From Usitatibacter rugosus (GTDB taxonomy: Bacteria; Pseudomonadota; Gammaproteobacteria; Burkholderiales; Usitatibacteraceae), in NCBI RefSeq assembly GCF_013003965.1, contig NZ_CP053069.1, forward strand, positions 3,937,419-4,001,418: DNA of 64,000 nt. Direction: 5' to 3'. The stretch's first letter is position 1; every line of letters begins with the position of its first letter. The position numbers and the translations under genes were made by a program. This document shows, piece by piece, positions 51,578 through 55,974 of this stretch. A model generated the notes under the pieces. The model saw only the letters and a list, made by a program, of their open reading frames with translations. It had not been told where the DNA came from and did no database searches.

Positions 51578-52045
51578 CTACTTCTTCTTCAGCAGCTGCG
51601 CGTGGGCCTTGTCCAACTCGGCCTGGCTGAGGAAGCCGTCGTGGTTCGTGTCCATCACGTCGAACATCCGCTTCGATCCCGCCTCGTGCTCGCCGGCCGA
51701 CAGCTCGCCGTTGTTGTTCTTGTCGATCGCGCGAATCTTCTCCGCCGAAGTCTTCTCGCCGGCGGCTGCCTTGCGGCCCGTGACCTGCTCGTGGGCTGCA
51801 TCCATCTCCGCGGCGGTCACCTTTCCGTCGTGGTTGGCGTCCATCGTGTCGAACATCTTCTTCGCGGCGGCCGTGTGCTCCTCCATGGAGACCTTGCCGT
51901 CGCCGTTGGCGTCCATCGCCTTGAAGCTCGACATGTCGGAGCCGGCCAGCGAGACGCCGGCGGCGAGCGAGCTCGCGACGAGCGCGACGCGGGTGCCGAC
52001 GCGATTCCATTTGGATTGCCAGGTAGCGGGGGATTGCTTGCGCAT
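51578..52045 (-). CDS. Exported EF-hand calcium-binding protein
   Basis: 155 residues. After a twin-basic N-terminus and hydrophobic segment (about 17-35) there are four EF-hand loops: DANGDGKVSMEE (45-56), DANHDGKVTAAE (69-80), DKNNNGELSAGE (108-119), DTNHDGFLSQAE (132-143). All have Asp/Asn at positions 1, 3 and 5 and Glu at 12, so calcium binding is expected. Location: periplasm or outside. No partner is evident. Confidence 0.88.
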   Translation of the reverse strand: MRKQSPATWQSKWNRVGTRVALVASSLAAGVSLAGSDMSSFKAMDANGDGKVSMEEHTAAAKKMFDTMDANHDGKVTAAEMDAAHEQVTGRKAAAGEKTSAEKIRAIDKNNNGELSAGEHEAGSKRMFDVMDTNHDGFLSQAELDKAHAQLLKKK

Positions 52046-52151: not shown

Positions 52152-52958
52152 TCAGTACGTCAGGAGCTGCACCAGGTCGGCGATGCGGTGCGTGCCGCCC
52201 TCATGGACCGAGTCGAACGCGCCCCTCAGCCGGCCTTCCACGACGGCGAACGTGATACGCGCCTCGCCCAAGGCCTCGATCTGCGTGAGGAGCGACGGGC
52301 ACGTCGCGCAGTAGGACGGCGACGACTTCGTTCCGTACATCGTGCCTTCGAGCACCGACCCGTCGCCGGTCCATCGCGTCTGCTGCAACGAGAGCCAGCG
52401 GGGATCGCCGTTCGCATCGTAGATCTGCCACGTCGCGAAGACGGTGTCGCTGCCGGCGTAGCGGTGGTCGAACGTCATTCCGGAGCCGTTCGTCGCCGGG
52501 TCGTACCACGCGCCGTTGATGTTGAACTTCGAGCGCACCGCCGCGCTGTACGACGTGACGAGCATTCCCCGCCCGAGGGCCCCGGGCTCCGTCGTCATGA
52601 CGAGGATGTCCCGGGTGCCCGCCATGTCGGGTGTGTACTCGAGCGAGAAGCTCCAGGTGTGGAAGGTCTGCGCGCAGAGGGTCGTGGAGTGCGGCACCGT
52701 GAGCAGCACGGCGACGTCCAACGTCTGCCGGCCGCGGCCGAGGCGGGCTTCGGTGGGGAAGCACGCGTCGGTCGAGAAGCCGCTCACCTGGATCGTGCGC
52801 TTCACGCCGGGCGGCGCGACCGGGGGATCGACCGAGATGACCAGCACCGGAGGAACGGGGCTCAGCTTCGTGCCGGTCTCGCCATCGCCGCGCCCGGGGG
52901 GTGAGACGAGCGTTGCGATGGCGAGCAGCACGAACGGGGCGAAGGCGCGTGTCTTCAT
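52152..52958 (-). CDS. Exported beta-rich protein with W-SG-x-G module (paralogue A)
   Basis: 268 residues. Signal peptide (about 1-18), a first beta domain (about 35-140, 'DPPVAPPGVKRTIQVSGFSTDACFP') and a second module 'FNINGAWYDPATNGSGMTFDHRYAGSDTVFATWQIYDANGDPRWL' near 145-265. The second module recurs in the paralogue B gene and, in a circularly offset form, at 45437-47194. I know no named family. Four cysteines could form disulfides. It lies 7 bp after paralogue B and is probably co-transcribed with it from the twin-operator region. Confidence 0.7.
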   Translation of the reverse strand: MKTRAFAPFVLLAIATLVSPPGRGDGETGTKLSPVPPVLVISVDPPVAPPGVKRTIQVSGFSTDACFPTEARLGRGRQTLDVAVLLTVPHSTTLCAQTFHTWSFSLEYTPDMAGTRDILVMTTEPGALGRGMLVTSYSAAVRSKFNINGAWYDPATNGSGMTFDHRYAGSDTVFATWQIYDANGDPRWLSLQQTRWTGDGSVLEGTMYGTKSSPSYCATCPSLLTQIEALGEARITFAVVEGRLRGAFDSVHEGGTHRIADLVQLLTY

Positions 52959-52965
52959 GGCGCCC

Positions 52966-53814
52966 TCACTGGATGACCAGGCGCCGCGGGATGAAGCGCT
53001 GCAGGTTCGAGGCGCGGCGCTGCGTTCCGTTGTTGGGCGTGAAGTCCATCGTCGCGTCGAGATTGCCGTGGACGAAGCTCGGCGAGAACGTGAGCCTCAC
53101 GCTGCCCTGGAAGATGACGTTGGACAGCGGCATCGCGCAGGGCGCCGCGCACGAGGACGGCGTGGCCGTCGACTCGAACATGAAGCCTTCCCACACCAGG
53201 CCGTTCACCTTCCAGTCGCCCTGCTGGATCCAGTACCAGCGCGTGGCGCCCGTCGCCGGGTCATAGACGTGCCAGGTCGCGAAGACGTCGTCGTTGTTGC
53301 CGTAGTCGTGCGAGATCATCAGGCCCGAGCCCGCCGTCGCCGGATCGAACCAGGTGCCGGAGACGTCGTGGAACGCCTTCGGCTTCTCGGCCGTCGCGGT
53401 GATCATCCAGCCGGATGTGATCGGCGAGGCCTGGTTGGTCATCACCAGGACTTCGACCTGGCCCACCGCCTCCGGCGTGTAGTCGAGCTCGAACCGGTAA
53501 GGCGCGAACGCGGAGAAGCAGGCCTGGAACGTCTGCTGCTCGGAAAGCAGGATGCCGATCGCCTGCGTCCGGGCGTACGACGGCGGCAGTCCCAGCTTCG
53601 CGCCCGTCGGTACGCACGAGTTCGGCCACATCCCCGCGACGATGATCTTCCGGGCCGTGCCGGGCGGCGCGATCGCCGGTTCCACGGCCACGGCGGCGAG
53701 CGGCGGGAGGATGGAGAGCTTGGGCTTACTTACAGCCGGCTCGGCCGCGGCCGAGCCGCAGGAGACGATGGAGAGGAACACCACGAACAGGGCGGAGAGG
53801 CGTTGAAAGAACAT
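52966..53814 (-). CDS. Exported beta-rich protein with W-SG-x-G module (paralogue B)
   Basis: 282 residues. Signal peptide (about 1-24), a first domain with 'VEPAIAPPGTARKIIVAGMWPNSCVP' parallel to paralogue A, and a second with 'VSGTWFDPATAGSGLMISHDYGNNDDVFATWHVYDPATGATRWYW'. AAGGAAGA lies 6-8 nt before the ATG. A strong minus-strand TTGACA (53903-53898) and an operator palindrome (53858-53876) lie upstream, so it heads the B-A unit. The function is unknown; domain layout and export suggest a surface or periplasmic binding protein. Confidence 0.72.
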   Translation of the reverse strand: MFFQRLSALFVVFLSIVSCGSAAAEPAVSKPKLSILPPLAAVAVEPAIAPPGTARKIIVAGMWPNSCVPTGAKLGLPPSYARTQAIGILLSEQQTFQACFSAFAPYRFELDYTPEAVGQVEVLVMTNQASPITSGWMITATAEKPKAFHDVSGTWFDPATAGSGLMISHDYGNNDDVFATWHVYDPATGATRWYWIQQGDWKVNGLVWEGFMFESTATPSSCAAPCAMPLSNVIFQGSVRLTFSPSFVHGNLDATMDFTPNNGTQRRASNLQRFIPRRLVIQ

Positions 53815-53857
53815 GGAATCTTCCTTTGGATCAGTGAATTGAACGGCTGCATCAAAC

Positions 53858-53876
53858 TGCGGGAATTTTTCCCACA
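53858..53876. promoter_or_regulatory. Operator palindrome 1 (TGYGGGAA-N3-TTCCCACA)
   Basis: TGCGGGAATTTTTCCCACA, an 8-3-8 palindrome with one mismatch. It lies between the paralogue B gene and a minus-strand TTGACA (53903-53898) at the expected place of the -10/+1 region, so a bound protein would block that promoter. The same sequence recurs at 53924-53942. Confidence 0.7.
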
Positions 53877-53923
53877 TTGCGGTATGATGGGCCTCGTTGT
53901 CAAGCCTTGCCCCGGCCAACAAA

Positions 53924-53942
53924 TGTGGGAACACTTCCCACA
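53924..53942. promoter_or_regulatory. Operator palindrome 2 (TGTGGGAACACTTCCCACA)
   Basis: A perfect 8-3-8 palindrome whose half-sites equal those of operator 1. The centre-to-centre distance is 66 bp, about six helical turns. It lies 24 bp before the DUF6502 GTG, downstream of a plus-strand TATGAT (53883-53888) that may be its -10 box. Paired sites between divergent genes suggest one regulator controlling both. Confidence 0.75.
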
Positions 53943-53966
53943 CGCAAGAAATGTCGATCGAAGCCC

Positions 53967-54821
53967 GTGTCCGAATCCGAGTCGAAAACCCGCCAATCCG
54001 CCGTGCTCCGCGCCCTCGCCCGGGTGCTGCGGCCGGTCGCGCGCCTGCTGATCGCGGGCGGCGTGCCGATCCAGGCGGCGAGCGAATCGCTGAAGCGGGC
54101 GTACGTCGAAGCGGCCCAGCGCCACTTCGGCGAGGAGGCCGGGACCGACAGCCGCCTCTCGCTGCTCACCGGCATCAACCGCAAGGAAGTGCGCCGGCTC
54201 ACCACGCCCGCCGCGGACGAATGGGGCCCGGAGTCGGTGACGTCGTTCGCTTCGGCCGTCTACACCGCGTGGACCCTGCGCGAGGAATGGCGCGGAGCGG
54301 ACGGCAAGCCCCGCGCGCTGCCCTTGCGAGGCGAGGGGTCCTTCGACGTGCTGGTGAAGGGTGTGACGCGCGATCTCCGGCCCTCGTCGGTGCTGGCCGA
54401 GCTGGTGCGGCTGGGTTACGCCGAGACGGGCGTGGACGACACGGTGCGGCCCGTCGGAGACGCGTTCCTCTCGCAGCGCGAGTTCACCGACCGGCTGGGT
54501 CCCCTCGCGGAAAACCTGCAGGACCACGCCGATGCCGCCGTCGCCAACGTGCTCGGCGCATCGCCCCCCTTCCTGGAACGCACTCTCTTCGGCGACGAGC
54601 TCTCGGAGGAGTCGGCGAAGGTGCTGCACGAAGAAGCCCGCGCGCACTGGAAGCGCGTGCACGACGAGCTGATCGCCCGCGCGGACGTGCTGGAAGCCGA
54701 GGACCAACGCCTCGGCCGTCCGGCCACGACGCGCATTCGCGTGGGTGTCTACGTTTATGTCGAAACCCCCTCCGGGGACGCGACCGCGTCGCCCCAGAAA
54801 AAGGAATCCGATGAAGACTGA
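53967..54821 (+). CDS. DUF6502 family protein, candidate DNA-binding regulator
   Basis: 284 residues from GTG 53967; an in-frame extension to 53877 would run through operator 2 and is not credited. The N-terminal half is helical with 'VLRALARVLRPVARLLIAGGVPIQAASESLKRAYVEAA' and 'LSLLTGINRKEVRRL', the latter like a helix-turn-helix recognition segment; the C-terminal half has 'AHWKRVHDELIARADVLEAE'. The family is uncharacterised. Its position beside a twin operator and overlap with a DUF5666 gene suggest an autoregulated transcription factor, which is inference. Confidence 0.7.
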   Translation: MSESESKTRQSAVLRALARVLRPVARLLIAGGVPIQAASESLKRAYVEAAQRHFGEEAGTDSRLSLLTGINRKEVRRLTTPAADEWGPESVTSFASAVYTAWTLREEWRGADGKPRALPLRGEGSFDVLVKGVTRDLRPSSVLAELVRLGYAETGVDDTVRPVGDAFLSQREFTDRLGPLAENLQDHADAAVANVLGASPPFLERTLFGDELSEESAKVLHEEARAHWKRVHDELIARADVLEAEDQRLGRPATTRIRVGVYVYVETPSGDATASPQKKESDED

Positions 54822-55974
54822 ACCTCTCGCGCTCCGGCGCTTCGGCGCGATCCTCGCGATCGCCCTCCTCCCCGGCTGCCTCGAGACGAAGACCGGCAGC
54901 AACGGAACCGGCAGCGTGCCCGCCGACGGCAAGTCGCTCGTCGCGGGCACCGTCGTGAGCGTCGAACCGTTCTCGGTCGGTCTGGCCTCGCTCGAGCCGT
55001 CCACCGCGGTCATCCGCCGCGACGAGACGACGAATGCCGGCGTCTCGTCGCTTCGCCTCGGCATGAATCTCGAGGCGGCCGGTACCGTGACGGGCCCCTA
55101 TGGCACCGTCCCCGTCGTGTTGCGCGAGGGCGGTGCCCAGAGCGCCGTGCGCGGGCCGGTGATCTCCGTCGACGCCGCCGCCCAGCGCTTCACCGTGGCG
55201 ACGTTCACCTTCGTCGTCGACGCGAACACCCTCTACGACGGCGTGGCCGGCTTTCCCGGTCTTGCCTCGGGCGCCTACGTGGAGGTCTCGGGCCTGCCGC
55301 TCGCGGACCTGCGCACGATCCTCGCGACGCGCATCACGCAGACGGCCGCGCCCGCCGATGGACGCATCTCGGTCTCGGCGCGGATCGACTCGCTGTCGGC
55401 GACGGGCCTGTCGCTCGCCGGCATCCTGGTGCCCGGCATCTCGAGCGGGAGCTTCAGTCCGCCGCCGCCGATCGGAGGCCGCGCCCGCGTGAATGGCAAC
55501 TACAACGCGGCTGCGGTCGCGATCACGAACGAGTTCGTGTTCCTGCTGCCCGATTTCGCGCCGGCGGCCAGCACCACGGTCGAGCTCGAGGGAATCGCGC
55601 TCAACGTGGCATCGAACGGGAGCTTCGTCCTGCGCACGCCCGCGCACGATTACGACATCGCAGCCGGTGCGCCCGGACCCACGCCGATCTCATCCGGGGC
55701 GCGCGTGCGCGTCGTGGCCACCGCGTCATCGGCCACGTCACTCATGCCGACCTCGGTGACCGCCGTGGGACAGATCGTCTATCGGGTGAGCGGTACCGTG
55801 AGCGACTACACGTCGCTCGCAGCGTTACGTGTGCGGGGAGAACCGGTGGATCTCACGACGGCGGTCATCCGGGGCGGCAATGCCTCGGACATCGCCAACG
55901 GACGGCGCCTCGCGATCGTGGGGACCGCGGGTCCCGGCGCACTGCGCGTGTCGGAGGCGACCCTCCTGCCCTGA
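54811..55974 (+). CDS. DUF5666 lipoprotein
   Basis: 387 residues. Lipobox 'LPGC' with Cys23, then several repeated beta units of OB-like DUF5666 type: 'VAGTVVSVEPFSVGLASLE', 'VRGPVISVDAAAQRFTVATFTFVVDANT', 'VYRVSGTVSDYTSLAALRVRGEPVDLTTA'. AAGGA precedes the ATG, and the gene overlaps the DUF6502 gene by 11 nt, so the two are coupled. The function is unknown; it is an envelope protein and a plausible target of the twin operator. Confidence 0.78.
   Translation: MKTEPLALRRFGAILAIALLPGCLETKTGSNGTGSVPADGKSLVAGTVVSVEPFSVGLASLEPSTAVIRRDETTNAGVSSLRLGMNLEAAGTVTGPYGTVPVVLREGGAQSAVRGPVISVDAAAQRFTVATFTFVVDANTLYDGVAGFPGLASGAYVEVSGLPLADLRTILATRITQTAAPADGRISVSARIDSLSATGLSLAGILVPGISSGSFSPPPPIGGRARVNGNYNAAAVAITNEFVFLLPDFAPAASTTVELEGIALNVASNGSFVLRTPAHDYDIAAGAPGPTPISSGARVRVVATASSATSLMPTSVTAVGQIVYRVSGTVSDYTSLAALRVRGEPVDLTTAVIRGGNASDIANGRRLAIVGTAGPGALRVSEATLLP

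Follow-up and report, generated by a model that had tools for sequence, protein, structure and literature searches.

Autoregulated one-component helix-turn-helix (HTH) repressors, such as those of the TetR, MarR, and GntR families, bind palindromic sites in front of their own gene and a divergent gene and control a small local regulon. The locus described here is built in a comparable way, with palindromes preceding a DUF6502 gene and its divergent neighbor, and DUF6502 would work like these autoregulators; however, it shows no convincing similarity to them, and its candidate operators fall into two classes that lie one base apart in spacing. The DUF6502 protein belongs to PF20112, to which Pfam assigns no function, and our literature search found no paper naming either DUF6502 or PF20112. 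The partner gene, here and in most of the loci scanned, carries the DUF5666 domain (PF18914). DUF5666 occurs in table rows of PMC10714799 and PMC12455991, and those rows contain no description of a DUF6502-DUF5666 operon; the other material retrieved for DUF5666, in excerpts, likewise held nothing about a module of these two families, and the listings returned for the motif letters included no DUF6502-like regulator. Regulators with palindromic operators are known; what appears to be new is this family, DUF6502, with operators of two classes and a connection to DUF5666 and to secreted proteins. Judged from the sequences, DUF6502 and its operators resemble a type of gene switch not described before, one that would join DUF6502, DUF5666, and an unnamed secreted-protein family in a single module.

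Twin Palindromes and Gene Layout in the Window

The window is the whole stretch of 64,000 nucleotides of Usitatibacter rugosus DNA that was analyzed. The sequence-only reading had singled out two palindromes in the region between a DUF6502 gene and two secreted paralogues, and it had proposed DUF6502 as their regulator. The features concerned are the following.

52152..52958, minus strand: PAR2, a secreted paralogue of PAR1; no Pfam family matched
52966..53814, minus strand: PAR1, a secreted protein divergent from DUF6502; no Pfam family matched
53815-53966: divergent region between PAR1 and DUF6502, 152 bp, given the PAR1 start at 53814 and the DUF6502 GTG at 53967
53858..53876: candidate operator 1, TGCGGGAATTTTTCCCACA, that is, TGCGGGAA-TTT-TTCCCACA, 43 bp before PAR1
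53897..53909: TTGTCAAGCCTTG, between the operators, with TTGACA on the minus strand (53903-53898)
53924..53942: candidate operator 2, TGTGGGAACACTTCCCACA, that is, TGTGGGAA-CAC-TTCCCACA, 24 bp before the DUF6502 start codon
53967..54821, plus strand: DUF6502 gene (GTG start assumed; 284 aa), the proposed operator-binding regulator
54144..54200, plus strand: HTH-like segment TDSRLSLLTGINRKEVRRL, residues 60-78 of DUF6502
54811..55974, plus strand: DUF5666 gene, with a lipoprotein-like N-terminus

The coordinates, the 8-3-8 form of the palindromes, and the start-to-start distance of 66 bp within the 152-bp region were all confirmed. Both TGCGGGAATTTTTCCCACA and TGTGGGAACACTTCCCACA fit TGYGGGAA-N3-TTCCCACA without a mismatch; the second palindrome is perfect, and the first contains one mismatched pair. 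When up to three mismatches were allowed, the window gave four strand-wise matches compared with a shuffle mean of 0.42, and none of 100 shuffles reached four. In the whole genome (4,563,145 bases), the two palindromes were the sole exact places for this pattern; at up to two mismatches two further places were found, and the reversed control gave four forward matches and one reverse match. The twin palindromes are therefore more than a chance occurrence. Operator 1 was kept with small changes in two near relatives (L028 and L026), and operator 2 was kept in L028 and carried two changes in L026.

The suggestion that the palindromes flank a minus-strand TTGACA and a plus-strand TATGAT held only in part. 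Both elements are present, and TTGTCAAGCCTTG was nearly invariant among the three nearest relatives, with TTGACA retained in both L028 and L026; it may represent a shared -35 region, as we infer from this conservation. TATGAT (53883-53888) was not conserved in L028 and L026, where most of the remaining divergent region had drifted as well, and a sigma-70 promoter scan of 53790-54010 returned no sigma-70-like pair, so that its role as a promoter element was not upheld.

The gene assignments were sustained. PAR1 and PAR2, taken as two secreted paralogues beside DUF6502, are 37% identical over residues 26-272. The DUF6502 protein scored 59.2 bits against the Pfam profile of PF20112 (cut-off 27), and the product of the following gene scored 55.2 bits against that of PF18914 (DUF5666; cut-off 27). 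The ATG of this gene at 54811 overlaps the end of the DUF6502 gene at 54821, and its product begins with a lipoprotein-like N-terminus containing LLPGC, which we take to be lipobox-like. An EF-hand protein gene (51578-52045) follows PAR2 on the same strand, and it had no homologue at E 1e-4 among the DUF6502 loci searched.

The DUF6502 Protein

Of the five stretches for which information was computed, residues 58-81, which hold the HTH-like segment, are the most conserved in the family, with a mean of 2.42 bits compared with 1.03 to 1.95 bits in the other four. By eye, SRLSLLTGINRKEVRRL fits what we take to be HTH spacing. A Pfam scan of 68 DUF6502 members at E values up to 10 gave no convincing match to an HTH or regulator family: the profiles of TetR, MarR, GntR, and other named HTH families did not claim these proteins, and the matches obtained were at chance level and confined to single members (Prok-TraM, 0.05; HTH_54, 0.11; AlpA, 0.18; TetR_C_13, 1.8). 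Searches of the PDB with the whole profile, the N-terminal profile, and the HTH segment alone likewise gave no convincing match.

Conservation of the Palindrome Upstream of DUF6502 Genes

A search with the Pfam profile found DUF6502 in 12 of 28 genomes of the window's taxonomic family, 66 of 399 of its order, and 99 of 369 of its class, and a family of this spread thereby gains a specific proposed function with a defined candidate binding site. The first locus set consisted of 91 loci from the family and order, the window included, and another 80 loci taken from named records (from Pseudomonas, Nitrosomonas, Methylobacterium, Aromatoleum, Bradyrhizobium, and others); after short ends and duplicates were removed, 158 non-redundant upstream regions of about 350 bp each were retained. 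GGGAA-N3-TTCCC was present in 40 of these regions, whereas the runner-up of the 1024 possible five-base half-sites at this N3 spacing occurred in 4 and the mean was 0.12. With a weight matrix, built from 40 loci that are themselves among the 158 regions, 98 regions scored higher than any of 3160 Markov shuffles and 115 exceeded the 99% level of the null; the remaining 43 loci fell short of it. The consensus of the sites was aTGYGGGAA-WWW-TTCCCRCAt. Two or three sites were present in 55 of the 115 loci having a site of at least 12 bits, often 27-34 or 57-67 bp apart. The palindrome is thus clearly enriched near DUF6502 genes across many taxonomic families, contrary to the lack of palindromes that the sequence-only reading had named among its refuting outcomes, and a palindromic site that stands upstream of the gene itself and is conserved with it is what an autoregulated regulator would be expected to have.

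In genome G009, a second DUF6502 gene (L025, on contig C10) is preceded by three sites spaced 27-28 bp; one of these, TTGGGA-N5-TCCCAA, mixes both operator classes.

Proposed Regulation by DUF6502

We propose that DUF6502 is a dimeric HTH autoregulator that also controls its DUF5666 partner and secreted proteins, in each case probably as a repressor. TDSRLSLLTGINRKEVRRL would act as the HTH, with the two copies in a dimer reading the half-sites of TGYGGGAA-N3-TTCCCRCA, and a dimer that reads two GTGGGAA half-sites would account for the palindrome. Binding at the two operators would block both presumed divergent promoters, giving autorepression together with repression of the envelope genes, and a signal would release DUF6502 from the operators. 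We infer the roles of binder, dimer, and repressor, as well as the cooperation of the twin sites, which may act together, from sequence patterns; on these grounds, DUF6502 very probably binds DNA at its palindromes and regulates itself.

Provided that DUF6502 binds, repression is fairly likely to be the outcome, since the operators lie close to both start codons. The best sites of the DUF6502 loci lie at about -26 to -315 relative to the gene start, and some are far enough upstream for activation; DUF6502 might accordingly bind, a step common to both explanations, and activate the DUF5666 and secreted-protein genes or act on them as a mixed regulator. We regard activation as a possible but distinctly less favored outcome, because the window's own operators stand only 24 and 43 bp before the start codons of DUF6502 and PAR1, and sites so near start codons are typical of repression.

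Two Operator Classes That Follow the DUF6502 Protein

The operators were of two spacer classes, TGGGA-N5-TCCCA and TGGGA-N6-TCCCA. When exact TGGGA-Nx-TCCCA was counted in 235 loci for x from 0 to 14, x = 5 was found in 42 loci, x = 6 in 29, and all other spacers in none. Most of the highest-scoring ("canonical") DUF6502 proteins of the first set were without an N5 site and had, by eye, TTGGGA-N6-TCCCAA or close variants. Before the class-level set was assembled, we fixed the prediction that proteins with an H- or N-type presumed recognition helix would go with N5 sites and those with an S- or T-type helix with N6 sites. This set comprised 90 loci (L265-L354), a part of the listed places, and yielded 92 usable DUF6502 genes; an N5 or N6 site was called when at least 11 of 12 positions agreed. 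H-type proteins had N5 sites in 8 of 25 cases and N6 sites in none, and S/T-type proteins had N6 sites in 17 of 44 cases and N5 sites in none. The nine N-type proteins had no N5 site and two N6 sites (L306 and L310), against the prediction. The other 14 proteins (12 uncaught by the helix-motif pattern, one Y-type, and one D-type) had N5 sites in two cases, N6 sites in three, and both in one. Thus, the idea that a single residue of this presumed recognition helix (H/N versus S/T) sets the operator was rejected for N; it is the clade of the protein, not this residue, that the class follows.

Over the 235 proteins, 86 were labeled N5, 29 N6, one both, and 119 neither class at the 11/12 level. On the protein tree, a quick FastTree reconstruction with some long branches, the N5 and N6 labels required 2 changes compared with 26.1 after shuffling, and none of 500 shuffles was as low. 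When the operator class of each protein was predicted from its nearest relative in another genome (leave-one-out), 114 of 115 predictions were right, the miss being L121. Paralogues of one genome also differed in class: L066 had an N6 and L106 an N5 site in G284; L306 had an N6 site and L332 an N5-like site (10/12) in G786; and L338 had an N5 site and L318 an N6-like site (10/12) in G908. Operator class therefore co-varies strongly with the DUF6502 protein, but the independent events are few, because the class changes only twice on the quick tree. In these paired spacer classes, the joint change of a dimeric regulator and its operator can be studied as a natural experiment.

Six loci (L080, L086, L103, L108, L128, and L132) combine changed helix residues with changed palindromes; by eye, the helix variants RKY, RAE, and NRRE go with the palindromes GTGTGA, GTGTAAC, and ATGTGC. 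They are possible specificity changes.

Co-occurrence of Site and Gene, and the Question of Another Regulator

In the window's family, the AT-centered pattern TGYGGGWAWWWWWCCCRCA, which was written after sites from a looser search had been seen, was found in 11 of the 12 DUF6502-carrying genomes and in none of the 16 that lack the gene (reversed control, 0 of 28); several of the 28 genomes are drafts, and the absences are therefore not absolute. A pattern with two mismatches and a free spacer gave 59 forward matches in the 12 DUF6502 genomes compared with 51 in the reversed control and was hardly commoner, so that the AT-centered pattern alone is informative for presence and absence. The exception among the DUF6502 genomes, G027, carries a canonical-type DUF6502 alone, which agrees with its lack of an AT-centered site. 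In the draft genome G017, an N5 site lies next to a PAR gene close to the end of a contig, yet only a canonical-type DUF6502 was found. DUF5666 was detected in 10 of the 28 genomes and PAR homologues with E values of 5e-16 or lower in 11, in both cases exclusively among the 12 with DUF6502; six more genomes, G027 and five without DUF6502, had weaker PAR matches alone.

In the reverse direction, 91 of the 399 genomes searched in the order contained the looser core YGGGAAWWWTTCCCR. Among the matches listed, 40 loci held 41 such sites away from a known DUF6502 gene, and a DUF6502 gene was found in none of the 40. The flanking R and Y were kept in 4 of these 41 sites compared with 31 of 35 sites next to DUF6502; thus, the core alone is unspecific, and the full site is largely specific. 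At the phylum level, the strict pattern GYGGGAAWWWTTCCCRC matched in 6 of 398 genomes, with two of the six matches beside DUF6502, the window's own included, and the other four not within 1.5 kb of it. At L232 (position about 2045), a core match lies within a far longer perfect inverted repeat that extends it by 13 pairs in either direction, which sets it apart from the other core sites retrieved with it.

Core motifs away from DUF6502 leave room for the explanation that the palindromes are operators of some other regulator and that DUF6502 is merely one of its targets, as does the lack of any convincing resemblance of DUF6502 to an HTH family or a solved structure. We consider this improbable, because the class of an operator follows the DUF6502 protein tree and can differ among the paralogues that a genome carries, the site is missing in all 16 family genomes that lack the gene, and the sole recurrent Pfam family in the adjacent genes scanned is DUF5666, in lipoprotein-like proteins. 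That the palindromes instead form RNA hairpins (attenuators or terminators) in leader transcripts is highly improbable and was rejected: each repeat could fold into a stem of at most 8 bp closed by a 3-nt loop, but in the 98 best sites, chosen by a weight matrix that favors the consensus, changes in the inner five pairs were one-sided 71 times and compensatory once, only 38 sites were fully complementary there, loci often carry several sites, and the exact sites have N5 or N6 spacers only. One-sided changes of half-sites fit the reading of DNA by a protein, not an RNA stem.

Partner Genes and Unlinked Sites

Under the proposed autoregulation by DUF6502, the neighboring genes would be its targets. 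The gene after DUF6502 carried DUF5666 in 30 of the 40 exact-operator loci and in 79 of the 95 scanned loci without an exact operator. On the divergent side, a Pfam scan of the operator loci found no family in more than 2 of 34 divergent genes, and PAR stood beside DUF6502 in 8 non-redundant loci out of 171 loci searched, all in the window's taxonomic family. The divergent gene was thus rejected as a universal partner; by these counts, PAR is a local partner, and DUF6502-DUF5666 is the general unit.

AT-centered sites far from a DUF6502 gene, or on other contigs, were found in two relatives, four in G024 (same genus) and two in G009; in the window's own genome, there was no AT-centered site other than operator 1. 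Each unlinked site lies at position 1501 of its locus. Signal-peptide-like starts nearby were judged by a crude hydropathy and ribosome-binding-site filter or by reading.

L399 (G024): site 12 bp from a gene with a signal-peptide-like start
L401 (G024): site 62 bp from a PQQ-type beta-propeller protein gene with a signal-peptide-like start
L402 (G024): site 11 bp from a signal-peptide-like gene, by reading; unreported by the filter
L403 (G024): site 444 bp from a gene; a weak case
L394 (G009): site beside a beta-propeller protein gene with a signal-peptide-like start, by reading
L400 (G009): site 78 bp from a PAR homologue (E 8e-69)

The earlier proposal that envelope or secreted proteins are under control gained support from the divergent PAR genes of the family and from these unlinked sites, which lie mostly beside secreted-protein genes. 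The sites suggest a dispersed regulon in relatives and, drawn from two genomes, would be the best support for secreted-protein control beyond the local operon. For G024, the predicted regulon consists of the genes next to C1:1659375-1659459, 2143089, 3079752, and 3627717, and perhaps 3968626. A more tentative extension, which we put forward as unlikely in its entirety, is that DUF6502 is a widespread and hitherto undescribed transcription-factor family of Pseudomonadota whose N5 and N6 classes changed with dimer geometry and which would run a regulon of the secreted and outer-envelope proteins, with the DUF5666 lipoprotein as an input or feedback arm, the cytoplasmic regulator and this lipoprotein together forming an envelope-sensing pair.

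A DUF6502-DUF5666 pair, annotated as such, is also present on a plasmid of Rhizobium sp. BT03 (L355), where it lies shortly after flagellar hook genes.
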